A DNA stretch of 39,604 nucleotides from Holophagaceae bacterium. Lineage in GTDB: Bacteria; Acidobacteriota; Holophagae; Holophagales; Holophagaceae. This document shows positions 26,309 to 38,256 of the stretch, one piece after another; position 1 is the stretch's first letter, and the number at the start of each line of letters is the position of its first letter. Where the stretch lies: contig JANXQX010000012.1 in NCBI GenBank assembly GCA_025353305.1, forward strand, positions 1 to 39,604, in the 5' to 3' direction. The notes under the pieces are model-generated. The model was not told the DNA's origin, ran no database searches, and worked only from the letters and a program-made list of their open reading frames with translations. The translations under genes and the position numbers were made by a program.

Positions 26309-27835
26309 CTATTTGTTCGAAAACTCCATCACGGCGGCTGCTGGCGACTCTTTTTCAAACCAGCGGATATCGTCTGTCCACTTGAGCAGTTGGGGACCGA
26401 AGACAGTCCCGATGAGCACAATGGCGCAGGTCGTGCTGATGAGGAACTTGGAGTAGGAATCCATGGGCTCCACTTCGCCTTCGGCTGGCTCCTTGAAATA
26501 CATCTGCTTGACCACTTCCAGGTAGTAAAAGGCGCTCACGGCGGACGTCAGCAACGCGATGACCACCAAGGTTGTGAAGCCCTGTTGCACCGCCAGGAGG
26601 AAGATGTAGAACTTCCCGAAAAAGCCGATGAAGGGCGGGATGCCCGCAAGGCTCAGCAGGAAGACCAGCATGGAAAAGGCCAGCACCGGATGGCGCTTGC
26701 CCAGGCCGCCGAAATCCTCGATGCGCTCGCCTTCGTTTTTGCCCTGGAGGTAGATGACCACCGCGAAGGCGCCGGTGTTCATGAAGAGATACAGCAGCAT
26801 GTAAAGCCAGACCGCCTGGGCTCCGGCCTGGGCGTCCCGGCTCAATACACCCAGCAGCATGTACCCCACGTGGGCGATGGAGGAATAGGCCAGCAGCCGC
26901 TTCAAACTTTGCTGCTTGATGGCCGCTATGTTGCCCAGGATCATGCTGGCCCCGCAGATGATCATCAGGGGGGCTTCCCACTCGTATGAAATGCTATGGA
27001 AGCCCGTGCCGAAGGCCCGCAGGAACACGGCCAGGGACGCGGCTTTGGGTGCGGTGGCCAACCAGGCGGTGATGGGTGTCGGGGCCCCATCGTAAACGTC
27101 GGGAGACCACATATGGAAAGGCACCGCCGCCACCTTGAAACAAAGGCCCACGAGCACCATCAGCACACCGGAATAGACCAGCAGGCTTTTGTCCTGGGAA
27201 ACCACCGCCAATTTCTGGTTCAGCTCCGTCAGGTTGGTCGTGATGCCTCCCGTCGCGGCGAAAAGGAGCGAGATTCCGAAAAGCAGGATGCCGCTGGAGA
27301 ATGCCCCCAGCAGGAAGTACTTCATGCCAGCCTCGATGCCGCGCTCCTGATTGCGAAGGTAGGCCACGAGAATGTAGATGCAGAGCGCCATGAGTTCGAT
27401 GGAAAAGTAGATCGTCACCAGATCCACGGCGCCGCACATGAACAGCATGCCGCTGGTGGCGAACAGGATCAGCGCGTAGTACTCCGCCGTATGCTCCACA
27501 AGGGCGCCAAGCACCTTTTGGCTGAGCATCACCGCGAAGATCGAGGCCAGGATGCAGAGCACCTGAAAGCCCTTGGCCAGGCCGTCCACCTTGTACATGG
27601 AGGAGAACCCCAGCCCATTGGGCGTGTAGACCGAAAGCAGAAGCGAAACCAGCAGGATCACCATGGTAGGCATGGCCCACTTGTGCTTTTCCGCTTTGGT
27701 CCATGGCAGCAGCCAGCTATCCAGCGGCCACAGCATCAGCAACCCCGAAAGCATCAACAGAACATGTGGCCAGATGTAGTGGATGTCATGGCTGAGGTTC
27801 TCCCATAGCCCTGGTGCGAAGGAAGGCGCCGACAT
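26309..27835 (-). CDS. nuoN: NADH-quinone oxidoreductase-type complex I subunit N
   Basis: NuoN is one of three antiporter-like proton-pumping subunits of the membrane arm. The 508-residue protein has about 14 helices and the conserved lysine-bearing segments, including VAAVPFHMWSPDVYDGAPTPITAWLATAPKAA (the core proton_antipo_M region, here split around its centre) and LLAYSSIAHVGYML. The ATG at 27835 overlaps the nuoM TGA by one base (TGATG), so translation is coupled. It is the last nuo gene, and the Fo accessory genes follow. Confidence 0.96.
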   Translation of the reverse strand: MSAPSFAPGLWENLSHDIHYIWPHVLLMLSGLLMLWPLDSWLLPWTKAEKHKWAMPTMVILLVSLLLSVYTPNGLGFSSMYKVDGLAKGFQVLCILASIFAVMLSQKVLGALVEHTAEYYALILFATSGMLFMCGAVDLVTIYFSIELMALCIYILVAYLRNQERGIEAGMKYFLLGAFSSGILLFGISLLFAATGGITTNLTELNQKLAVVSQDKSLLVYSGVLMVLVGLCFKVAAVPFHMWSPDVYDGAPTPITAWLATAPKAASLAVFLRAFGTGFHSISYEWEAPLMIICGASMILGNIAAIKQQSLKRLLAYSSIAHVGYMLLGVLSRDAQAGAQAVWLYMLLYLFMNTGAFAVVIYLQGKNEGERIEDFGGLGKRHPVLAFSMLVFLLSLAGIPPFIGFFGKFYIFLLAVQQGFTTLVVIALLTSAVSAFYYLEVVKQMYFKEPAEGEVEPMDSYSKFLISTTCAIVLIGTVFGPQLLKWTDDIRWFEKESPAAAVMEFSNK

Positions 27836-29520
27836 CAATGACCTCCGCGCGGCGTCGCATGCACCGCAGGAGTCTCTGCTTTCAGTTCTGCGGCGTGCTC
27901 TTCAGGCATCGCCCCATGTTCCCTGGCTTCAGACGCTTCCTGGGCTTCCATCCCGTGCATGCCGACCTTGGCGGCTTCGGCCTGCTTGGCGGCCAAGGTT
28001 TCGGCCTTGTAGAAGTCCGGTTGCACTTGCTGCACGAGCTTGGCAACAGGCTTGTCCATGATGTCCATGATGGGTTTGGGGTAGAGTCCGATCCACACGG
28101 CCGCAATGATCAGGGGCGTGAAGTAGGCGATCTCGCGGAAGTTCAGATCCTCCATCTTGGTGTTCACTTCGGAGATGGGTCCGAACATCACGCGCTGGAA
28201 CATCCACAGCATGTAGGCAGCGCCCAGGATGATGCCTGAAGTCGCCATAACTGCCACCCAGGGCCAGGTCTGGAAGGTGCCCATGAGGATGGTCGCCTCG
28301 CCAATGAAACCGTTCAGCAATGGCAGGCCGATGCTGCTCATGGTCATGAGCATGAAAATGGTCGCGTAGATCGGCATGGTCTTCGAAAGCCCGCCGTAGT
28401 CCGCGATCATGCGGGTGTGGCGGCGCTCGTAGACGATGCCCACCACGAGGAACAGTCCCGGTGTCGAAATGCCGTGGTTGAGCATCTGGAACATCGCGCC
28501 CTTCAAACCCCAGGGGTTCAGCGCGAAGATGCCCAGCATGCAAAGCCCGAGGTGGCTCACAGATGAATAGGCCACGAGCTTCTTCATGTCCTTCTGGATC
28601 ATGGCCACCAGCGCGCCGTAGACCACACCGATGAGCGCCAGCGCCAGGAACCAGGGCATCAGCTCCTTGGTGCCATCGGGGACGATGGGCAGCAAAAAGC
28701 GCACGAAGCCGTAGGTGCCCATCTTCAGCAGGATGCCCGCCAGGATCACGGACCCCGCCGTGGGCGCCTGCACGTGGGCGTCCGGCAGCCAGGTGTGGAA
28801 GGGGAACATCGGCACCTTGATGGCGAAGGCCAGGAAGAAGGCCAGGGTCAGCAGGATCTGGAAGGTCTTGGTCTGGCTCGCGATGAGCTGGACGGTCTGG
28901 GCGCTCTGGAACGAGGCCAGGGAGAAATCGTATTGGCCGGTCGCCTTGTGCTGCAGGAAGTAGATGGCGAAGATCGCCACGAGCATCAGCACCGAACCGG
29001 ACAGGGTGTAGAGGAAGAGCTTGATGGCGGCATACAGTTTCTGTGGACCGCCCCAGATGCCGATGAGGAAATACATGGGCACCAGCATCACTTCCCAGAA
29101 GATGTAGAACACGAACATGTCCTGGGTGATGAAGACGCCGAGCATGGAAGTCTGAAGCACCAGCAGCCAGATGTAGTATTCCTTCCAGCGCTCCTCGATG
29201 TTGCCCCACGAGCAGAGCGCGGCGATGGGGCCGGTGAAGGTGGTCAGCAGCCAGAGCAGCAAGGAAATGCCGTCCATCCCGACGCTGAATTTGACGCCGA
29301 GGCTTGGCATCCAGTCGCAGGCATAAGCGAACTGCACGGCATCGCTGCCCCGGTCGTATTGGAACCAGAGCGGCACGCTCAGCAGAAAGCTGGCGACCAT
29401 GATGGCCACCGTCGCCTTCTGGAAGATCTCCCGCTTCTCGTTGGGCACGAAGAGCAGGCCAAGCCCACCCAGCACGGGCAGGAAGGTGGCCAAAAGCATC
29501 AGTTGGGCTGTACCGCTCAT
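27835..29520 (-). CDS. nuoM: Complex I subunit M
   Basis: NuoM is an antiporter-like proton-pumping subunit. The product of 561 residues has about 14 helices and conserved marks such as FYIFWEVMLVPMYFLIGIWGG, FAIKVPMFPFHTWLPDAHVQAPT and KLVAYSSVSHLGLCMLG. Its C-terminus carries an additional 45-residue hydrophilic tail rich in Ala, Glu and His, which the usual subunit lacks. The ATG at 29520 has GGAG six bases upstream and is preferred over the TTG four codons earlier. Confidence 0.96.
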   Translation of the reverse strand: MSGTAQLMLLATFLPVLGGLGLLFVPNEKREIFQKATVAIMVASFLLSVPLWFQYDRGSDAVQFAYACDWMPSLGVKFSVGMDGISLLLWLLTTFTGPIAALCSWGNIEERWKEYYIWLLVLQTSMLGVFITQDMFVFYIFWEVMLVPMYFLIGIWGGPQKLYAAIKLFLYTLSGSVLMLVAIFAIYFLQHKATGQYDFSLASFQSAQTVQLIASQTKTFQILLTLAFFLAFAIKVPMFPFHTWLPDAHVQAPTAGSVILAGILLKMGTYGFVRFLLPIVPDGTKELMPWFLALALIGVVYGALVAMIQKDMKKLVAYSSVSHLGLCMLGIFALNPWGLKGAMFQMLNHGISTPGLFLVVGIVYERRHTRMIADYGGLSKTMPIYATIFMLMTMSSIGLPLLNGFIGEATILMGTFQTWPWVAVMATSGIILGAAYMLWMFQRVMFGPISEVNTKMEDLNFREIAYFTPLIIAAVWIGLYPKPIMDIMDKPVAKLVQQVQPDFYKAETLAAKQAEAAKVGMHGMEAQEASEAREHGAMPEEHAAELKAETPAVHATPRGGH

Positions 29521-29526
29521 GAAAAA

Positions 29527-29530
29527 CTCC
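29527..29530 (-). promoter_or_regulatory. Ribosome-binding site of nuoM
   Basis: GGAG on the minus strand, six bases ahead of the ATG at 29520. It fixes the start against the upstream TTG. Confidence 0.7.
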
Positions 29531-29549
29531 AAACGAATATCACTTCAAA

Positions 29550-31853
29550 TCAAGCAAGAAACTTCCAGAAGGCGAAAGCCAGGAAACCGAGCATCATCAC
29601 GAAGGCGTAGTTCTGGACCCTGCCGCTCTGCAAGGTCCTGAAACCCTGGGAACCCTGCTGCAGGCCCCAGGCCACGGAATTCACCAGACCGTCCACCACC
29701 TTGGCGTCGAACCAATCGCTGGCTTTGGCCATTGCCACCGTGAAACGTGCGGCGCCGTTCACCGTGCCATCAATCGCCCAATTATCGAGGCTCCACAGCT
29801 GGGCCGATAATTGCTTGGCCGGGCTGATGATCATCGCGTCGTAGAACTCGTCCACGTAGTACTTGGCGTTGACCCACTCGAATACTTGAGGGAATCGCGA
29901 CACGAATGCCTTGGCTTTGGACCAGCTTGGATCAGAGATGTACATCCACCAGGCCAGGCCCATGGCGCTGAGTGCCCAGACGATGGCGAAGCCCATGAGG
30001 CCATACTCGATGGTTTCGGCTGCGTGGTGGCCTTCGTGGATTGCGCTCACCTGATAGAGCAAAGGCTCGAGCCATTTGGTGAAATGCTCGCTGCCGCCCA
30101 GGCTCGGCGGCAGGTTCAGGAAGCCCAGCACCACTGCCAGTACCGCGAAAATGAAGACCGGCACCCACATGTTCCAGGGCACTTCTGCGGGACCATGGCC
30201 ATGCCCGGCATGGCCGTGATCAGTGAGCTCATCGGCCGCGAATGGTTCGATCCCGGGATTGGTGTGAGCATCGTCATCAGCGTCGTGGCCATGAACGCCA
30301 TGGGTGTGATCATCGCTGGCGTGATGGACCTCGCTGGGCACCGTCAGGCCGTAGGGATCACTCCCAGCACCCCGATACTCCCCGAAGAAGGTCATGGCCA
30401 TGAGCCGCACCATGTAAAAGGCCGTGCAGAAGGCCGCCAGCATGCCCATCCCCCAGCACACGAAATAGAACGAACCTAGCCCGTTCCAGCCGTGTTCGAA
30501 GACTTTCCACAGGATTTCATCCTTGGAGAAGAAACCCGAGAATGGCGGGACACCCGCAATGGCCAATGTGGCCAGGCCCATGCTGGCAAAGGTCCAGGGC
30601 ATGACCTTGCGCAACCCGCCCATGTTCCGCATGTCCTGTTCGTGGTGGCAGGCGACGATGACCGAGCCCGAACCAAGGAAAAGGCAGGCCTTGAAGGCCG
30701 CGTGGGTGAAGACGTGGAACATGCCCGCCGAGAAGGCCCCGGCCCCTAGGCCCATGAACATGAAACCGAGCTGGGACACGGTGGAATAGGCCAGCACCTT
30801 CTTTATGTCGTACTGGGCCAGGCCCATGGTGGCGGCGAACAGGGCGGTCAGGGAACCCACCAACAGCACCAGGGAAAGGGCAACGGGCGCCAACACATAA
30901 ATGAAGTTGAGCCGCGTGATCATGTAGAGGCCCGAGGTTACCATGGTGGCCGCGTGGATCAGCGCGCTCACTGGCGTCGGACCTGCCATGGCGTCCGGCA
31001 GCCAGACATAGAGCGGAATCTGCGCGGACTTGCCCACGGCGCCCACAAAAAGGCAGCAGGCGCTCAGGTTGAACCAGAAGGTCGGCGTGGCCGTGTGGCC
31101 GAAGAGCGTGATAGCGGGGGCCGCGCTAAGGTTCCGCACCATGCCCATCATCGTGTCGTAGTCCACGGTTCCGAACAGCATGATCAGCAGAAAGAAACCG
31201 ATCATGAATCCGAAATCACCCACGCGATTGAACACGAAAGCCTTCTTGCCGGCGATCGCGGCGTAGTCCCGGTCGAAGTAGAATCCGATGAGCAGGTAGG
31301 AGCAGACGCCGACGCCCTCCCAGCCCAGGAACATCATCAGGATGTTGGCGCCCAGCACCAGGTTCAGCATGGAGAACACGAACAGGTTCATGTAGGCCAT
31401 GAAGCGGTAGTAGCGGCCGTCGTTGCGCTCTTCGGCCATGTAGCCGGTGCTGAACATGTGGATCAGGAAGCCGGCTCCCGTCACCAGGATGGCCATGGCT
31501 CCGCCAAGGGCGTCGAACTTGTAAGCCCACTTGATCGTCGCGGTGCTGAGACCGCCTAAAACTCTTGCCCCGCCCAGATCGAACCAGGTCCAGAGATTCT
31601 GGTGGATGGACCGGGAACTCTCCGGCATGCCCAGCAATTGGAAGAAGAAATAGATCGTGAGCAGGAACGAGATCCCCACCGAACCCAGGGCGATGGCGTC
31701 CACCACTCTGGTGTTCTTGAGCCGCCGGCCCGTCAGTCCATTGATGAGAAAGCCGAAGAACGGCAGGAAGGGTATGAGCCAAAGGATGCCGCTGCTGGTG
31801 CTGGCGGCGCCTGCGGCTTCCACCATGTGACTCGCTGCTTGTTCGATAATCAT
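29550..31853 (-). CDS. nuoL: Complex I subunit L with a His/Asp-rich loop
   Basis: NuoL is the distal proton-pumping subunit, with the long lateral helix that runs back along the membrane arm. The 767-residue protein is well above the roughly 610 of Escherichia coli. Conserved regions include FLGWEGVGVCSYLLIGF (175-191), SAQIPLYVWLPDAMAGPTPVSALIHAATMV (starting at 276, in the family's core) and KKVLAYSTVSQLGFMF. Residues 510-555 are an inserted hydrophilic loop with about eleven histidines and many aspartates, between two membrane helices. The C-terminal 120 residues include the VNAKYYVDEFYDAMI segment common to NuoL. It lies between nuoK and nuoM. Confidence 0.96.
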   Translation of the reverse strand: MIIEQAASHMVEAAGAASTSSGILWLIPFLPFFGFLINGLTGRRLKNTRVVDAIALGSVGISFLLTIYFFFQLLGMPESSRSIHQNLWTWFDLGGARVLGGLSTATIKWAYKFDALGGAMAILVTGAGFLIHMFSTGYMAEERNDGRYYRFMAYMNLFVFSMLNLVLGANILMMFLGWEGVGVCSYLLIGFYFDRDYAAIAGKKAFVFNRVGDFGFMIGFFLLIMLFGTVDYDTMMGMVRNLSAAPAITLFGHTATPTFWFNLSACCLFVGAVGKSAQIPLYVWLPDAMAGPTPVSALIHAATMVTSGLYMITRLNFIYVLAPVALSLVLLVGSLTALFAATMGLAQYDIKKVLAYSTVSQLGFMFMGLGAGAFSAGMFHVFTHAAFKACLFLGSGSVIVACHHEQDMRNMGGLRKVMPWTFASMGLATLAIAGVPPFSGFFSKDEILWKVFEHGWNGLGSFYFVCWGMGMLAAFCTAFYMVRLMAMTFFGEYRGAGSDPYGLTVPSEVHHASDDHTHGVHGHDADDDAHTNPGIEPFAADELTDHGHAGHGHGPAEVPWNMWVPVFIFAVLAVVLGFLNLPPSLGGSEHFTKWLEPLLYQVSAIHEGHHAAETIEYGLMGFAIVWALSAMGLAWWMYISDPSWSKAKAFVSRFPQVFEWVNAKYYVDEFYDAMIISPAKQLSAQLWSLDNWAIDGTVNGAARFTVAMAKASDWFDAKVVDGLVNSVAWGLQQGSQGFRTLQSGRVQNYAFVMMLGFLAFAFWKFLA

Positions 31854-31902: not shown

Positions 31903-32205
31903 TCAACCCTTCAATAGATTGATTTCATCCACCTGGACGTTGCCCTTCTTGCGATACAGGGCCACTACCAAAGCGAGTCCGACCGCCACTTCCGCCGCAG
32001 CAAAGCCCATCACCAGAAGCGCAAAGGCCTGGCCATGGACGGTGCCTGACAAGCGGGCGAAGGCGATCAGATTGAGATTGGCCGCGTTGAGCATGAGCTC
32101 CACGCACATCAGGATCACCAGCGCGTTGCGGCGGATGAGCACTCCCGCCACACCCACGGACCAGAGCAGGAAGGAAATCAGGAGTACCGCGTTCATCGAG
32201 ACCAT
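31903..32205 (-). CDS. nuoK: Complex I subunit K
   Basis: NuoK is a small membrane subunit with three helices that contains conserved glutamates of the proton path. The 100-residue length is standard. LMCVELMLNAANLNLIAF holds the first conserved Glu, and the FAAAEVAVGLALVVALYR segment holds the second. GGAG five bases before the ATG at 32205 supports the start. A second ATG three codons later is possible. Confidence 0.96.
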   Translation of the reverse strand: MVSMNAVLLISFLLWSVGVAGVLIRRNALVILMCVELMLNAANLNLIAFARLSGTVHGQAFALLVMGFAAAEVAVGLALVVALYRKKGNVQVDEINLLKG

Positions 32206-32213
32206 GTGCGCTC

Positions 32214-32762
32214 CTATACCCTTTCCGATTTCGCCAGCACGATGGCCCCGACGAGGGCCACCAGCAGGATCACCGAGAGAATTTCAAAAGGCAGGAGGAA
32301 GTTCGCGAACAGGCCGCGGCTCACGGCCTGCGCGTTGCCCAGGTTTTCCGTGGCGCCCACCAAGCCTGGCTGAAGCGTCAGTGCCTCCGGTGCGCTGGCG
32401 CCAAAGAGCGCGCCGCGAAACACACCCGCGAAGGCGAGCAGGCCCAGCCCGATGAGGGGAATCGCGAATTTCGTCTGGGTCTGAAAAATGCCCTTCTCCT
32501 GGTACTTGGTGAGCTCCACGAGCATCACGACAAAGAGGAAAAGCACCACGATGCCGCCCGCGTAGACCAGCAACTGCGCAATACCCAGGAACTCGGCCTG
32601 CAGCGACAGAAAGCAGCCCGCCACGCAGATCATCGAGAACAGGAACCCGATGACGCTGTGGACGGCGCTTCTGGAGAAGATGAGGACCCCGGCGCCACCC
32701 GCGGCCAATAAGCCGAAGATCACGAACATGTTCTGGCCTAGCTTGATGAGGAATTGTTCCAT
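32214..32762 (-). CDS. nuoJ: Complex I subunit J
   Basis: NuoJ is a five-helix membrane subunit next to the quinone site. The 182-residue product has the family segments AVHSVIGFLFSMICVAGCFLSLQAEFLGIAQLLVYAGGIVVLFLFVVMLVEL (in order, not as one motif: SVIGFLFSMI, LQAEFLGIAQLLVYAGGI and VLFLFVVML). The ATG at 32762 is preferred; the open frame continues upstream into nuoI but has no homology there and would overlap that gene by 300 bases. It follows nuoI after 38 bases. Confidence 0.95.
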   Translation of the reverse strand: MEQFLIKLGQNMFVIFGLLAAGGAGVLIFSRSAVHSVIGFLFSMICVAGCFLSLQAEFLGIAQLLVYAGGIVVLFLFVVMLVELTKYQEKGIFQTQTKFAIPLIGLGLLAFAGVFRGALFGASAPEALTLQPGLVGATENLGNAQAVSRGLFANFLLPFEILSVILLVALVGAIVLAKSERV

Positions 32763-32800: not shown

Positions 32801-33310
32801 TTATTCCTCGCTGGCGACCGAGTAGTGGCTCACAGGCGTGGGGTCGAACATGTTCTGGAAGCCACCTTCCATCGCGTGGGAGAAATCCTCGCGATCGTAA
32901 GTGGCCAGCTCGAACTGGTGGTTCAGGATGATGGAGTCGAAGCCACAACTTTCCACGCAGAATTCGCAGAAGATGCAGCGTTCCATCTCGAAGTCGTAAC
33001 GGACCGGAAAGGGGGTTTTGCGGCCCTCTTTCTTGCCTTTCTCGATGGTGATGACCTGGGTGGGACAGATCTTCTCGCAAGCCATGCAGCATACGCATTT
33101 GACCTCGCCCTGCTCATCCTTGATCATCTGTAGCCGGCCGCGGAAGCGGGGCATCAGAATCGTGGGAACCTCGGGGTATTCAACCACGACATGGGTGCGC
33201 TTGAGGCCACGGTTGGCCTGACGCAGGACCTTGCCGAAATATTTCCCGGTGAGCTTCATGCCTCCGTAGATGTCGAAGGGGATCAGGGTGCGGAGCAGCG
33301 AAGATGCCAT
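32801..33310 (-). CDS. nuoI: Complex I subunit I, two [4Fe-4S] clusters
   Basis: NuoI carries clusters N6a and N6b and passes electrons to N2 in NuoB. The 169-residue protein has two CxxCxxCxxxC motifs. The first is Cys72, Cys75, Cys78 and Cys82 (followed by Pro) and the second is Cys112, Cys115, Cys118 and Cys122 (followed by Gly instead of Pro). In a complex without NuoEFG it is the first expected bound acceptor, so it is the likely docking site for an electron donor such as the ferredoxin domains of the NuoC fusion. Confidence 0.96.
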   Translation of the reverse strand: MASSLLRTLIPFDIYGGMKLTGKYFGKVLRQANRGLKRTHVVVEYPEVPTILMPRFRGRLQMIKDEQGEVKCVCCMACEKICPTQVITIEKGKKEGRKTPFPVRYDFEMERCIFCEFCVESCGFDSIILNHQFELATYDREDFSHAMEGGFQNMFDPTPVSHYSVASEE

Positions 33311-33318
33311 TGTCGACC

Positions 33319-34542
33319 TCAGGCGGCGTAGCGGAGCAAGGCCGCGATGACGAACATGACCAGGGTGTAGGGGATCAGGAATTTCCAGCCGACATTCATG
33401 AGCTGGTCATAGCGGTAGCGCGGCAACGTGGCACGCACCCACAGGAAAACGAAGAGCAGGGTGAATATTTTGAGCAGGAACCAGAGGATGCTGGGTGTGC
33501 AGCTCCAGGCCAGCAGTGCGTTAGGACTGTTCTGGAAAAAGTGGTTCCAGGTCGGCTGAAGACCGAATGGCAAGAGATAGTGCCCCCCCAGGAAGAACGC
33601 GCTGGCCAGGGCGGAAACAGTGATCATCGAGGCATATTCCGAGAGGAAGAAAAAGCTGAACTTCATGCCCGAGTATTCAGTGTGGAAGCCCGCCACCAGC
33701 TCGTTTTCGGCTTCGGCCAGATCGAAGGGCGTGCGGTTGGTTTCGGCGAACCCGCAGGTGGTGTAGACGAAAAAACCTACGAACATCAGTAACGTCCGGC
33801 CGATGCCCACCAGCCCATTGACTGGAACGTCCGTGGCCATGCGTGTGCTCATCTCGTTGAAGTTCAGGGAGCCGGTGAGTACTACCGGAACCAGAAGGCT
33901 GAGGGTCAGGGGCACTTCGTAGCTGACGATCTGGGCCGCGCTGCGCAGGCCCCCAAGCAGCGGGTATTTGGAGTTGGAGGCCCAGGCGCCCAACACGATG
34001 CCGTACACGCCCACGGAGGCCACACCCAGGATGAAGAGCAGCCCGACGTTGAGGTCCGTCAAGAACCCATTGAATGGAAGACCGCCCAGGAAAGGGAATT
34101 TCGCGGGGAAGTAGAACAACGCGCCGGGCGCGAAGCTGATGGCCGCGAACACGGTAAAAGCAGCGACCATCGCCAGCGCCGGGGACAACACGAAAACCGT
34201 CTTATCGGCGTCCACGGGGACGATGTCCTCCTTGGTGAGGAGTTTGAGGGCATCCGCTATGAACATCGGAAGACCCCGGAGGATCGAAAACACGGGCACC
34301 CTGCCCAGAAACCACATGAGGCCGTTCAAGCCACCCGTGAATGTCCGGGATTGGTGGGTCCGGCCCCGCTGCGCGCCCCATAGTCCGCCGGCCACCCGGG
34401 TGGCGCCCAGGCGCACCTGCACGTAGCCGATTACCTTGCGCTCGGCAAACGTGAGCAAGGGGACCAGCGTCATCACGAAGCCCATGACCACGACGATCTG
34501 CAACAGGGAAATGACCAGGTATTGAATTAATGTAGGCGTCAT
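33319..34542 (-). CDS. nuoH: Complex I subunit H
   Basis: NuoH is the membrane subunit that forms the quinone tunnel with NuoB and NuoD. The 407-residue protein has eight or nine helices and the family motifs AERKVIGYVQVRLGATRV, SYEVPLTLSLLVPVV and TNRTPFDLAEAENELVAGFHTEYSGMKF (the last region holds the conserved acidic residues; quoted as TNRTPFDLAEAE and ELVAGFHTEYSG). The ATG at 34542 has GAGGA seven bases upstream, overlapping the nuoD stop. It follows nuoD. Confidence 0.95.
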   Translation of the reverse strand: MTPTLIQYLVISLLQIVVVMGFVMTLVPLLTFAERKVIGYVQVRLGATRVAGGLWGAQRGRTHQSRTFTGGLNGLMWFLGRVPVFSILRGLPMFIADALKLLTKEDIVPVDADKTVFVLSPALAMVAAFTVFAAISFAPGALFYFPAKFPFLGGLPFNGFLTDLNVGLLFILGVASVGVYGIVLGAWASNSKYPLLGGLRSAAQIVSYEVPLTLSLLVPVVLTGSLNFNEMSTRMATDVPVNGLVGIGRTLLMFVGFFVYTTCGFAETNRTPFDLAEAENELVAGFHTEYSGMKFSFFFLSEYASMITVSALASAFFLGGHYLLPFGLQPTWNHFFQNSPNALLAWSCTPSILWFLLKIFTLLFVFLWVRATLPRYRYDQLMNVGWKFLIPYTLVMFVIAALLRYAA

Positions 34543-34552
34543 TGTCGGGTCC

Positions 34553-35653
34553 TCATCGATCCACCTCTCCGAGCACAACGTCCAGCGTTCCGATGGCGGC
34601 GATCACGTCCGCCAGCAGGCGGCCTACGACCATCTTGGACAGGGCCTGCAGATTGATGAACGAGGGTGCCCTGATGTGCATGCGGTAAGGATTCTGCCCC
34701 CCCTTTTCACCGACGAAGTAATAACCCAACTCGCCCTTGGGGGCCTCGATGGCATGGTAGACCTCGTTCACTTCAGACTTCAACACCTTGGGAAGCTTGG
34801 CCATCATCGGGCCTTCGGGCAGCCCGTCCAGGCACTGATTGATGATCCGATGGGCCTGGCGCATTTCTTCCAGGCGCACCAGGTAACGGGCGTAGGTGTC
34901 GCCGGCGGTCTGGGTAGGCACCTCGAAGTCCATCTCAGAGTAGGCCGCGTAGGGGAAGACCTTGCGGATGTCATAGGTCGAGCCCGCGGCCCGGAGCACG
35001 GGGCCGGTGACGCCCAGTGCGATGGCATCTTCCGCATTGAGCAGGGCCACGCCGATGGTGCGTTTTTTCCAGATGCGGTTTTCCGTGAGCAACGTCTCGT
35101 ATTCATCGATGCAATCCAAGAAGCGGGCCTGGAAAGCCCGGACCTGCTTCTCGAGCCCTGGCGGGATATCCTCCCGCAGGCCACCGATGCGAAAGGCCGT
35201 AGTGGTGAGCCGTGCACCACAGAAGGCCTCGAATATCGAAAGGATTTCCTCCCGTTCCCGAAAGGCGTACAGGAAGACCGTCATGGCCCCGATGTCGAGC
35301 GCGTGGGTGCCCAGCCACAGCAGGTGCGAGGTGATGCGGTTGAGTTCCGTAAGCATGGTGCGGATGTAGTGGGCGCGCCTAGGGACCGTGATGCCGAAAA
35401 GTTTTTCGACACCCTCGGCCCAGCCAAGGTTGTTGCTGACGGATGCCACGTAGTCCGTGCGGTCCGTCCAAACCTGCCCCTGAAAGAAAGTCTTGTTTTC
35501 GCAGATCTTTTCCACACCCCGGTGCAGGTAACCGATCATCGGCGTGCACCGGGTGATGGTCTCGCCATCCAGATGCAGCTTCACCCTGAGCACACCATGG
35601 GTAGATGGATGCTGCGGGCCCAAGTTGATTTCCATTTCCTCGGTTTTAAACAC
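34553..35653 (-). CDS. nuoD: Complex I subunit D (49 kDa)
   Basis: NuoD descends from the large subunit of NiFe hydrogenases and forms the quinone-binding cavity. The 366-residue protein begins with [23 protein letters not shown], the quinone-loop region, and has [32 protein letters not shown] and a C-terminal [20 protein letters not shown] end. A GTG at 35653 with AGGAG six bases upstream is preferred over the ATG at 35635. NuoC is a separate upstream gene here, so this is not the NuoCD fusion of enterobacteria. Confidence 0.96.
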
Positions 35654-35678: not shown

Positions 35679-37364
35679 TCAGTCTGCCTTCGGGATTTTG
35701 AGGTTGATGCCCATGTTTCCTGCCTTTTCCAGGGCCATCCGCATGAGGACCCCGGAACGGTCTTCACGGAAATCAATGTCCCGCTGGCCCCAGCCGAGGG
35801 TGGGATATTCCTTGCGCAGGGGGTAGCCTTCCCAGTCCTCCGGGCAGAGAATGCGCGTCATGTCCGGATGGCCGCTGAACCGGATGCCGAACATGTCGTA
35901 GATCTCCCGTTCCATCCAATTGGCTGAGGGATAGATCTCGACGGCGCTCTCCAGCTCCTGCCCTTCCTTGACCAGCACCCGGATGCGAAGGCGCTTGCGG
36001 CGGCTGATGGATGTGAGTTGGTAGACGACCGAAAACGCGAACCCTTCAGCCGCTGGATAGTGGGTTGCGGTCTGATCCGCGAGCATTTCATACCGCAGCG
36101 AGGCGTCGCCTTTGCAGAACATGAGGGTCTCGATCAGGCCATCCGGGTGCACCTGCAAGGTCAGCTCACCGCTCTGCTCGAAGGCCTGGGATACTTTCCC
36201 ATCCAGCAGATCCATGAGGTGGAGCAGATCCGGGTCCATGGCCTCGGTAGGCACAGGGATTTCCAGGTCATTTTCATTCTTTTTCGGAAGCGCTTTCACG
36301 GGTGGTTTAGGGGCATCCTTCCCCTCCGCCAGGGCTTTGGCTTTGGTGGTTTCAAAATCCGCCTGTTGCTTGGCCCATTTGGCCTCGTCGGCGGCTGCGG
36401 CGGCCTTCTGCTCTTCCTGGTAGGTGTGCAGGCTGGGCAGGGGAACCGTCTTCGGCATCACCACCTGGCGATTCGGAGCGGCCTTGTAGTCGAAGACATA
36501 GGGGCCGGCGGCCATTTCAGCGTCCGGCGCACCGTGGGGTTCGGCTTCCACCGCCGGAGCATGGCCGAGCACCTCGTACTTGATGACATCCACGGGGCAG
36601 TTCTGGGCGGCCGTGATGATGCTGGCGATGAGGCGCTCGCCATCGGAAGGATAAAGGCCATTTTTCTCGATTCGGTTCTCAGATTCCTTGCCATCCACCC
36701 GGACGGCGGCTTTGATCGTGCAGGTGGTCTCGGTGACATGGAACACTTCGGGACTGTCGGCCTCACAAGCGTTGCAGACGATGCAGCCTTCCTCGATCCA
36801 GACCCTGGTGACGCGGGGCTTGGCCGTGTCAGTGGCGGGTGGCGCGACCGGAGGCAATGAAACAGCGCCAGCGACTGACGGTACAACGGGACTCACAGGC
36901 GCAGCTGTAGCCAGAGCCACCGCCTCCACCGCGACGGCGCTGAGGTTTGCCGTCGTCCCAAGGGCCGCATCAACTGCATCTTCGATATCGGAATCAACAA
37001 CAGGAGACGCATCAGGCACTGCTTCAGGCACAGCAGCGACATGAGTTGGTACCGACGCAGCGACTGGGGCGGCTGGAACGATAAGGGCGGGTGCCGGTGC
37101 TGCCACGCTGGCCACCTGATCGAACTTGATCACTTCCACGGGACAGCTGGCTGCGGCCGCAACGATGGCATCTTCAAGGCTCGTCTGCAGATCCGTCTTC
37201 AGTTCAGCCCTCTCGTCGCGGTTCTCGTTTTCCTTGCCGTCCTGGCGGGCGTCGCCCTTGATGTGGCAGCTGTCCTCGGTGACGTGGAAGACGTCCGGGC
37301 ACTCTGCCTCGCACGCATTGCAAACGATGCAGCCCTCTTCGATCCAGACCTTCGTGATAGCCAT
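35679..37364 (-). CDS. nuoC: NuoC with two N-terminal ferredoxin domains
   Basis: The 561-residue protein has three units. Fd1 (residues 1-84) has Cys12, Cys15, Cys18 and the distal Cys74 in SCPVEVIKF, the four ligands of a single [4Fe-4S] cluster; Cys22 is an extra. A 100-residue Ala/Pro/Val-rich linker follows. Fd2 (184-264) is a near-duplicate, with Cys194, Cys197, Cys200 and Cys256; Ser204 replaces the extra Cys. A second linker (265-370) has a Lys/Ala/Glu-rich helix. Residues 375-561 are NuoC, with MEREIYDMFGIRFSGHPDM. Typical NuoC is about 160-220 residues. The fusion lies between nuoB and nuoD, as NuoC should. A GGAGGGG nine bases upstream supports the ATG. Electron-entry use is inferred. 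Confidence 0.96.
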   Translation of the reverse strand: MAITKVWIEEGCIVCNACEAECPDVFHVTEDSCHIKGDARQDGKENENRDERAELKTDLQTSLEDAIVAAAASCPVEVIKFDQVASVAAPAPALIVPAAPVAASVPTHVAAVPEAVPDASPVVDSDIEDAVDAALGTTANLSAVAVEAVALATAAPVSPVVPSVAGAVSLPPVAPPATDTAKPRVTRVWIEEGCIVCNACEADSPEVFHVTETTCTIKAAVRVDGKESENRIEKNGLYPSDGERLIASIITAAQNCPVDVIKYEVLGHAPAVEAEPHGAPDAEMAAGPYVFDYKAAPNRQVVMPKTVPLPSLHTYQEEQKAAAAADEAKWAKQQADFETTKAKALAEGKDAPKPPVKALPKKNENDLEIPVPTEAMDPDLLHLMDLLDGKVSQAFEQSGELTLQVHPDGLIETLMFCKGDASLRYEMLADQTATHYPAAEGFAFSVVYQLTSISRRKRLRIRVLVKEGQELESAVEIYPSANWMEREIYDMFGIRFSGHPDMTRILCPEDWEGYPLRKEYPTLGWGQRDIDFREDRSGVLMRMALEKAGNMGINLKIPKAD

Positions 37365-37393: not shown

Positions 37394-37912
37394 CTAACTC
37401 ACCGATTCAAAGATCTCGGCGTATTTATCGGCCATGGAGCTTGTCATGATCTTGTCCTGGAGCTTCAGGAACCCGTAGATCAGGCCCTCGGGCCGGGGCG
37501 GGCAGCCGGGTATGAAGACATCCACGGGCACAATCTTGTCCACGCCCTGGATCGTGTGATAGCTGTCGAACGGGCCGCCCGCCGTGGCGCACGAGCCCAT
37601 GGCGATGACCCACTTGGGCTCGGGCATCTGGTCGTAGAGCTTCTTGATCACCGGCGCCATTTTGTAGGTCACGGTGCCCGCCACGATCATCAGGTCACTC
37701 TGGCGGGGCGTGGCCCGGAAGATGCCGGCGCCGAAGCGGTCGAAGTCGAACTTGGAAGCACCGGCGGCCATCATCTCGATGGCGCAGCAGGCCAAGCCGA
37801 AGGACATGGGCCAAACGCTGGTGGCGCGTGCCCAATTGATCACTCTTTCGACTTTGGTGGTGATGAGGATGTGCTCGAGGACATCTGGCCCGTTCATCCC
37901 ATTCATTCCCAT
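37394..37912 (-). CDS. nuoB: Complex I subunit B, cluster N2
   Basis: NuoB holds N2, the last Fe-S cluster, which reduces quinone. The 172-residue protein has the ligands Cys42 and Cys43 (ACCAIEM), Cys108 (GSCA) and Cys137 (GCPPRPE), all intact. [20 protein letters not shown] is the family hallmark region. GGAG lies seven bases before the ATG, and the gene overlaps nuoA by ten bases. Confidence 0.97.
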
Positions 37913-38256
37913 GTGAGAGCTCCTTTGGCCCAGATGTACCCATAACCGAATAACAGCAGGAACAGGAAGAACAGCATCTCGACAAGTCCGAACAGAGCCA
38001 GTTCTTTGATCTGGATGGCCCAGGGCATCAGGAAAACTGTTTCCACGTCAAAAATCAGGAACATCACTGCAACCATGTAATAACGCACCGAAAATTTTTC
38101 CCGGGCCCCGGTGATGGGTGTGATGCCGCATTCATAGACCATGTACTTGTTCGCATTGGGTGCCTTGGGCCGGAGCATGCGGGCTAGACCCCAGACTATG
38201 GGCGGTGTCGCCATAGAAATGAGCAGAAGTAACAGAATCGGGGCATAGCCTCGCAT
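37903..38256 (-). CDS. nuoA: Complex I subunit A
   Basis: NuoA is a three-helix membrane subunit near the quinone site. The 117-residue protein has the family segments [40 protein letters not shown] (marked by YECGI and [12 protein letters not shown]). GGAG five bases before the ATG supports the start. It is the first gene of the nuo-atp operon. I could not find a convincing -35/-10 pair in the 75 bases upstream. Confidence 0.96.

Follow-up and report, generated by a model that had tools for sequence, protein, structure and literature searches.

Two ferredoxin domains fused to NuoC in a nuoEFG-less complex I operon of Holophagaceae

The contig analyzed here, from a Holophagaceae bacterium (GCA_025353305.1, JANXQX010000012.1; "the window", 39,604 nucleotides in full), encodes a complex I subunit NuoC that is preceded, within the same polypeptide, by two monocluster ferredoxin domains. 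This fusion is real and conserved, and at the level of gene content it is a pointer to ferredoxin as an electron donor. We consider that the complex is probably an 11-subunit-type ferredoxin:menaquinone oxidoreductase whose donor is covalently tethered. According to the passages of PMC11238625 that bear on this question, it is still open what donates electrons directly to the 11-subunit complex I: no common donor protein emerged when one was sought, and ferredoxin is listed among the donor candidates in D. hafniense. A donor attached to a core subunit would be genetic support for ferredoxin within a single lineage and would supply a substrate, already in place, with which to test this directly, and the natural two-, one-, and no-ferredoxin versions found within a single family offer a ready comparison set. 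A search of open-licence PMC articles (without bioRxiv and with few subscription papers, and thus no proof of absence) showed no paper on a ferredoxin–NuoC fusion among the titles and abstract openings listed. The passages on the topic in PMC12361115 mention a NuoCD fusion and a complete complex I in most Acidobacteriota species, and do not include a ferredoxin–NuoC fusion.

Architecture of the fused gene and its operon

The fused gene (35679..37364, minus strand) is a single open frame of 561 residues, with a GGAGG-type ribosome site immediately 5' of the ATG of the first ferredoxin. From N- to C-terminus, the protein consists of a ferredoxin, an Ala/Val/Pro linker predicted to be disordered, a second ferredoxin, a conserved and putatively helical segment, and NuoC:

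37113..37364, minus strand: ferredoxin domain 1, residues 1-84 (Fer4_13 and Fer4_15; pLDDT block means 77-91)
36816..37106, minus strand: linker 1, residues 87-183, Ala/Val/Pro-rich and predicted disordered (composition; pLDDT mostly <50; nonsynonymous rate higher than in the domains)
36558..36815, minus strand: ferredoxin domain 2, residues 184-269 (Fer4_13/Fer4_15, two stretches; pLDDT block means 76-93)
36240..36500, minus strand: conserved segment ahead of the NuoC core, residues 289-375 (family alignment; predicted helix 312-347)
35679..36239, minus strand: NuoC core, residues 376-561, plus stop codon (Complex1_30kDa; TIGR01961; Foldseek to complex I 30-kDa subunits)

Over the whole protein, the Pfam models Fer4_13 (31.5 bits, curated cut-off 24.5) and Fer4_15 (30.6 bits, curated cut-off 22.4) each matched in two stretches, and Complex1_30kDa matched residues 404-522 with an E-value of 1e-40, while the NCBIfam model TIGR01961 named the C-terminal part NuoC (134.9 bits, cut-off 122.45). 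The presumed ligands are Cys 12, 15, 18, and 74 in domain 1, which has further cysteines at 22 and 33, and Cys 194, 197, 200, and 256 in domain 2, which has a further Cys 215 and a serine where domain 1 has Cys 22. Both domains thus combine a CxxCxxC motif with a distal CP cysteine, i.e., the four ligand cysteines of a monocluster ferredoxin, and we infer that each holds a [4Fe-4S] cluster. The initial annotation had described a NuoC with two ferredoxin domains ahead of it, sharing a VWIEEGCIVCNACEA core and a distal CPV cysteine and separated by an Ala/Pro/Val linker of about 100 residues. All of this was borne out: the core is identical in both domains, the distal CP cysteine is present in each, and linker 1 measures 97 residues (A 29%, V 20%, P 16%). 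A second linker of about 105 residues had also been proposed, and its length was right, but it is not a plain tether, as residues 289-375 are conserved, include the predicted helix, and bear signs of purifying selection.

In an AlphaFold model built from a 31-row alignment, pLDDT fell below 50 at residues 87-124 and 136-179 of linker 1, the two ferredoxin domains were confident, a helix formed at 312-347 ahead of the NuoC fold, and the last 50 residues had low confidence; this single-chain model reached a pTM of 0.40, and the relative placement of its domains carries no meaning. The 50 Foldseek matches listed for the whole model were all complex I subunits, and are therefore uninformative on the ferredoxin part. 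Segment 289-375 is kept across the family alignment, including in relatives without ferredoxin, and looks to be under purifying selection; it is mostly gone from the most divergent member (P0103). Ahead of Met 284, a candidate inner NuoC start that is missing in some aligned relatives (P0004, P0005), no ribosome site was seen in the DNA. A purine stretch precedes Met 303, from which an unfused NuoC may be translated separately.

The fused gene stands in an operon of 11 genes, nuoABCDHIJKLMN, from which nuoEFG are absent:

37903..38256, minus strand: nuoA (PF00507)
37394..37912, minus strand: nuoB, CC, C, C cysteine pattern present (PF01058, TIGR01957)
34553..35653, minus strand: nuoD, 366 aa, a short form without about 27 positions of PF00346 (Pfam/NCBIfam matches)
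33319..34578, minus strand: nuoH (PF00146)
32801..33310, minus strand: nuoI, two CxxCxxCxxxC motifs (TIGR01971 98 bits, below the cut-off of 113.05)
32214..32762, minus strand: nuoJ, start picked by eye at MEQFLIKLG (PF00499, 118.9 bits)
31903..32205, minus strand: nuoK (PF00420, 100.1 bits)
29550..31853, minus strand: nuoL (PF00361, 260 bits; PF00662, 47.3 bits)
27835..29532, minus strand: nuoM, M/N by gene order (PF00361)
26309..27838, minus strand: nuoN, M/N by gene order (PF00361)

A canonical 14-subunit complex has NuoE, F, and G encoded with it, and none of the three was found in the window operon. The cysteine patterns of NuoB (CC/C/C) and NuoI (two CxxCxxCxxxC), which we take to be the cluster ligands, are intact. 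Related loci, the nearest of which are titled Holophagaceae (Acidobacteriota), retain the same nuo gene order as far as their contigs extend, and in L002, one of the nearest, NuoA and NuoB are 97% and 100% identical to those of the window. In the window NuoH and in the relatives G001-G003, the Pfam match is interrupted at about position 40 of the profile, which hints at an insertion within this subclade. Downstream of nuoN by about 0.8 kb, on the same strand, lies an ATP synthase a-subunit gene (PF00119, 24776-25501, minus); a single 156-aa frame that matches no Pfam model separates the two.

Several known systems resemble this operon in part. NF008974, presumably a Bacillus-type model, and FpoD each give a single unbroken match along the whole length of the window NuoD, the FpoD model covering residues 1-366 at 372.7 of 600 bits, below its cut-off. 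Fpo, the F420H2 dehydrogenase of methanogens, is a core without NuoEFG that uses FpoF/F420 or free ferredoxin, and no FpoC with a fused ferredoxin is known to us. The 11-subunit complex I described in PMC11238625 has the same 11-gene, nuoEFG-less operon; unlike it, NuoC bears one or two covalent ferredoxins here, and three relatives also hold genes of the 14-subunit set. NuoEFG are likewise missing from the photosynthetic NDH-1 of cyanobacteria and chloroplasts, which, according to the same passages, receives electrons from ferredoxin and docks it through extra subunits (PMC11238625); that ferredoxin is free, whereas here it is part of NuoC. The window domains have CxxCxxC and the distal CP in common with Fer4_13/Fer4_15 monocluster ferredoxins of known structure (PDB 1iqz, 1rof/1vjw, 2z8q), which a profile of 14 free paralogues matched weakly (E 0.001, 0.002, and 0.009, respectively). 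They differ from these proteins by an extra cysteine near position 33 and by the fusion to NuoC, and domain 1 exceeds the Fer4_13 profile in length, with 72 residues aligned to 56 positions of the profile.

Origin, distribution, and constraint of the ferredoxin domains

The two domains had initially been considered near-identical and the product of a recent duplication. Neither description was borne out: identity between the domains is 57% in protein (46 of 81 residues) and 65% in DNA, and the free ferredoxins of 14 loci (69-78% identity) resemble domain 1 more than domain 2 does. On a domain tree of 81 columns, in which deeper forks are poorly supported, 13 of the 14 free ferredoxins formed a clade (SH-aLRT 99), the one from L075 (titled Planctomycetota) standing apart, and second domains mostly clustered together. 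This identity level and tree speak against a recent duplication of near-identical domains; the pattern instead points to one older duplication of the ferredoxin domain, as far as so weak a tree can be read.

Ferredoxin domains were collected for these comparisons only when they ended in a [CSAT]P pattern and also displayed CxxCxxC, a filter that missed two outgroup domains and no fused one; the "single" label in this set covers possibly incomplete proteins as well as L004, where the contig end truncates the first of what are actually two domains. Every one of the 143 fused domains selected through CxxCxxC, near-copies counted, retained the fourth ligand cysteine, while Cys 22 was lost in 17 of 35 second domains. 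The extra cysteine near position 33 occurred in 143/143 fused and 14/14 free domains, even where Cys 22 is gone. Across five pairs, the nonsynonymous to synonymous ratio was 0.03-0.12 for domain 1, 0.04-0.14 for domain 2, and 0.14-0.32 for linker 1; saturated dS values were dropped and many remaining ones are high, and only the contrast between domains and linker is meaningful. Both ferredoxin domains hence look to be under purifying selection and linker 1 less so, with a small contrast between the window and L002 (0.12 and 0.13 for domains 1 and 2, 0.29 for linker 1).

A search for NuoC homologues with N-terminal ferredoxins, as the initial annotation had advised, recovered relatives with two, one, or none. 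We scanned 50 NuoC frames from loci among the best 80 of 552, a sample rather than a census, and the N-terminus could be read in 45. Two ferredoxins were found in eight of these (including L004), one in a single locus, and none in 36, among them Geothrix fermentans. The five remaining frames were either cut (L007, L022, L050, L051) or masked (L044) at the N-terminus. L048, from the same bin as L007 according to the titles, has two domains and is cut at the opposite end, and L026 and L051 share another bin. Among the protein database matches listed (120 of 208 and 120 of 690), at least 27 sequences have two domains and at least 71 have one CxxCxxC, some of them incomplete, and these partly duplicate the loci (e.g., the cores of L001 and P0006 are identical). 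The first of these searches is limited to proteins from 308 aa upward (0.55-1.75 times the length of the query), and forms without ferredoxin are hardly reachable by it; a further 44 listed proteins comprised five short and divergent one-domain forms and 39 without ferredoxin. The one-ferredoxin form is also present in a named strain, Geothrix sp. 21YS21S-2 (P0051).

On a tree of the NuoC core, the two-domain forms adjoin the root, and the distribution requires nine changes when scored as three states or four when scored as presence/absence. This is a quick tree with weak deep support, without L044, L050, L051, and proteins lacking a clean C-terminus or CxxCxxC, and with five rows given no state. 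Its simplest reading, subject to the weak root support and a long outgroup branch, would be an early fusion followed by repeated loss, which implies that the arm is not essential in this family. The Nuo genes of L012 (titled Bacillota) and L013 (titled Deltaproteobacteria) fall among Holophagaceae rows of the tree, and these may be mislabelled or mixed bins. In L003/G003 (C83:22578-22934), a TAG lies inside the open frame given for the fused NuoC core.

A second complex I gene set and ferredoxin-related genes in related genomes

To place the operon in a genomic context, we used 20 genomes reached via the related loci, eight with the fusion (G001-G008) and 12 without (G009-G020). Most are metagenome-assembled genomes of unstated completeness, and absences in them are soft. 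NuoF was over cut-off in 17 genomes and NuoE in 13, each with a weaker match in 19 of 20, some of these being other enzymes. A NuoG-like frame (E <1e-96) was present in all 20, mostly short (482-514 aa in 17 genomes), and none exceeded the NuoG cut-off, compared to 4 of 14 controls. Two NuoC-type domains above 115 bits were found in 18 genomes and one in G002 and G019. Of the 18 second copies, 13 have a nuoE match on their own contig at a distance of no more than 5 kb, and the remaining five are on other contigs or lack such a match. Similarly, the gapped, short NuoD of the 11-gene operon occurs in 20/20 genomes and a second, full-length NuoD in 17, G007 having one in two pieces on two contigs. 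In G005, G006, and G016 (G. fermentans), a complete split set (ABCDEF, G, and HIJKLMN, in three places) accompanies the 11-gene operon, and in the nuoABCDEF cluster of L100 nuoE and nuoF sit with the other NuoABCD. The NADH module of G005, G006, and G016 consequently has another complex to serve. In the three relatives read in detail, the lack of nuoEFG therefore appears to be a property of this operon and not of the genomes, and the host of the window would resemble its relatives in having a second complex I set. The initial annotation had spoken of a complex I lacking NuoEFG: this stands for the operon, while the reading that the organism lacks NuoEFG is ruled out, for the relatives, by the NuoE/F/G-type genes found there. 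The small genomes G004, G005, and G008 (0.9-1.2 Mb as listed) retain the two-ferredoxin NuoC together with both sets of complex I genes.

One free ferredoxin of 84 residues that belongs to this family (E ≤1e-5) was detected in each of 19 genomes, including 8/8 with the fusion and 11/12 without. At this threshold it was not found in G019, which nonetheless keeps the complex, and this family can thus not be the sole donor everywhere. No evident partner enzyme was seen among the gene neighbours of the free ferredoxin, the recognised ones, named by eye, being housekeeping genes. POR_N, which we take to be a domain of 2-oxoacid:ferredoxin oxidoreductases, was found in 19 of 20 genomes; the exception is G005, which carries the two-ferredoxin fusion. 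Frames of about 1200 residues, presumably the size of a single-chain PFOR, were found in 16 genomes, i.e., 12/12 without the fusion and 4/8 with it (missing from G004, G005, G007, and G008). The fusion hence does not seem to go with PFOR, but rather the reverse if anything, and, with G005 also devoid of POR_N, pyruvate oxidation is not favoured as the donor. RnfC was over cut-off in one genome, without the fusion, versus 4 of 14 controls. By these gene counts, most of the cells probably produce ferredoxin, and the usual Rnf outlet for it is mostly missing.

Possible roles of the tethered ferredoxins

In the reading we consider probable, namely a ferredoxin:menaquinone oxidoreductase with a tethered donor, a small monocluster ferredoxin related to the free one would have become joined to the N-terminus of NuoC and then duplicated, the two domains acting as covalently tethered electron carriers. 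These could be reduced by 2-oxoacid:ferredoxin oxidoreductases or by the free ferredoxin paralogue, and would swing on the disordered linker, the tether holding the carrier near the NuoI clusters for docking. Electrons would then pass from NuoI to NuoB and on to menaquinone, driving proton pumping, and under a high proton-motive force the same route might be reversed, with reduction of ferredoxin. In armless species, free ferredoxin or another carrier may feed the same core complex. The initial annotation had proposed a mobile electron-entry arm, which is supported at the gene level by the NuoEFG-less operon, the conserved ligands, and the recurrence in separate genomes; what we infer beyond this is where the arm docks, that electrons pass from it to NuoI, the direction of flow, the donor, and the quinone. 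More tentatively, and with somewhat greater doubt than confidence, we propose that the two domains on their long disordered tether form a swinging arm by which a proton-pumping complex I exchanges electrons with soluble 2-oxoacid oxidoreductases, replacing the NADH module through covalent capture of the donor. Such an arm would be an iron–sulfur counterpart of lipoyl or biotinyl arms and, if it exists, would show what an 11-subunit complex I can use.

Other roles would draw on the same parts. The complex could run in reverse as an electron exit, menaquinol reducing ferredoxin at the expense of proton-motive force to supply biosynthetic reductant. With RnfC in only one of 20 genomes, another source of reduced ferredoxin may indeed be needed, and ferredoxin may be scarce in the four fused genomes without a long PFOR-type frame; the lack of POR_N in G005 likewise slightly strengthens this reading and slightly weakens that of ferredoxin as donor. 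Sequence sets no direction, however, and a separate NADH-type gene set fits both, and we regard an electron exit as unlikely. It is also quite unlikely, in our view, that the main current flows elsewhere and that the domains serve as docking bait, redox sensor, or assembly aid gathering free ferredoxin or a partner enzyme: their repeated loss and the disappearance of Cys 22 from about half of the second domains would suit such a role, but the invariant fourth ligand cysteine in the fused domains picked by CxxCxxC and the low nonsynonymous change in both domains argue against it.

Alternatively, the complex could borrow NuoEF(G) as a module from the second complex I, the tethered ferredoxins bridging the two in a manner comparable to HoxEFU and cyanobacterial NDH-1, a link that is the subject of PMC9414918. 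NuoE-, NuoF-, and NuoG-type genes do exist elsewhere in the related genomes; yet in three of these the second set comes with A-D and H-N genes of its own, so that NuoEFG own a full complex there, which makes borrowing improbable. Finally, the initial annotation had named an assembly or sequencing error joining separate genes as a point to check. Nothing in the window suggests one, the in-frame TAG of the relative L003/G003 being the only sign of this kind. Conversely, a two-ferredoxin NuoC was found at eight genome loci and in L048, from several sampling projects according to their titles, as well as in the two-domain database proteins, some of which are the same loci, and its frame is retained with low nonsynonymous change. 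Recurrence of the same fusion in separate assemblies makes misassembly very unlikely as the source, and we give an artefact next to no weight. The ferredoxin:menaquinone oxidoreductase with a tethered donor is thus the reading we retain.

Related fusions were observed outside this operon. P0110 combines NuoC with PF04060, likewise an Fe-S-type addition, though with a different domain that lies, by reading of the sequence, at the C-terminal end. Seven proteins of 464-667 aa (P0104, P0105, P0111, P0116, P0117, P0119, and P0120) join the same ferredoxin family to Fer2_3, four of them also with a flavodoxin domain, and P0104 and P0105 have two CxxCxxC motifs; tethering of this ferredoxin family is possibly a broader habit. 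In P0122-P0125 (348-374 aa), a related Fer4_13 ferredoxin is found together with a Rieske domain (PF00355).
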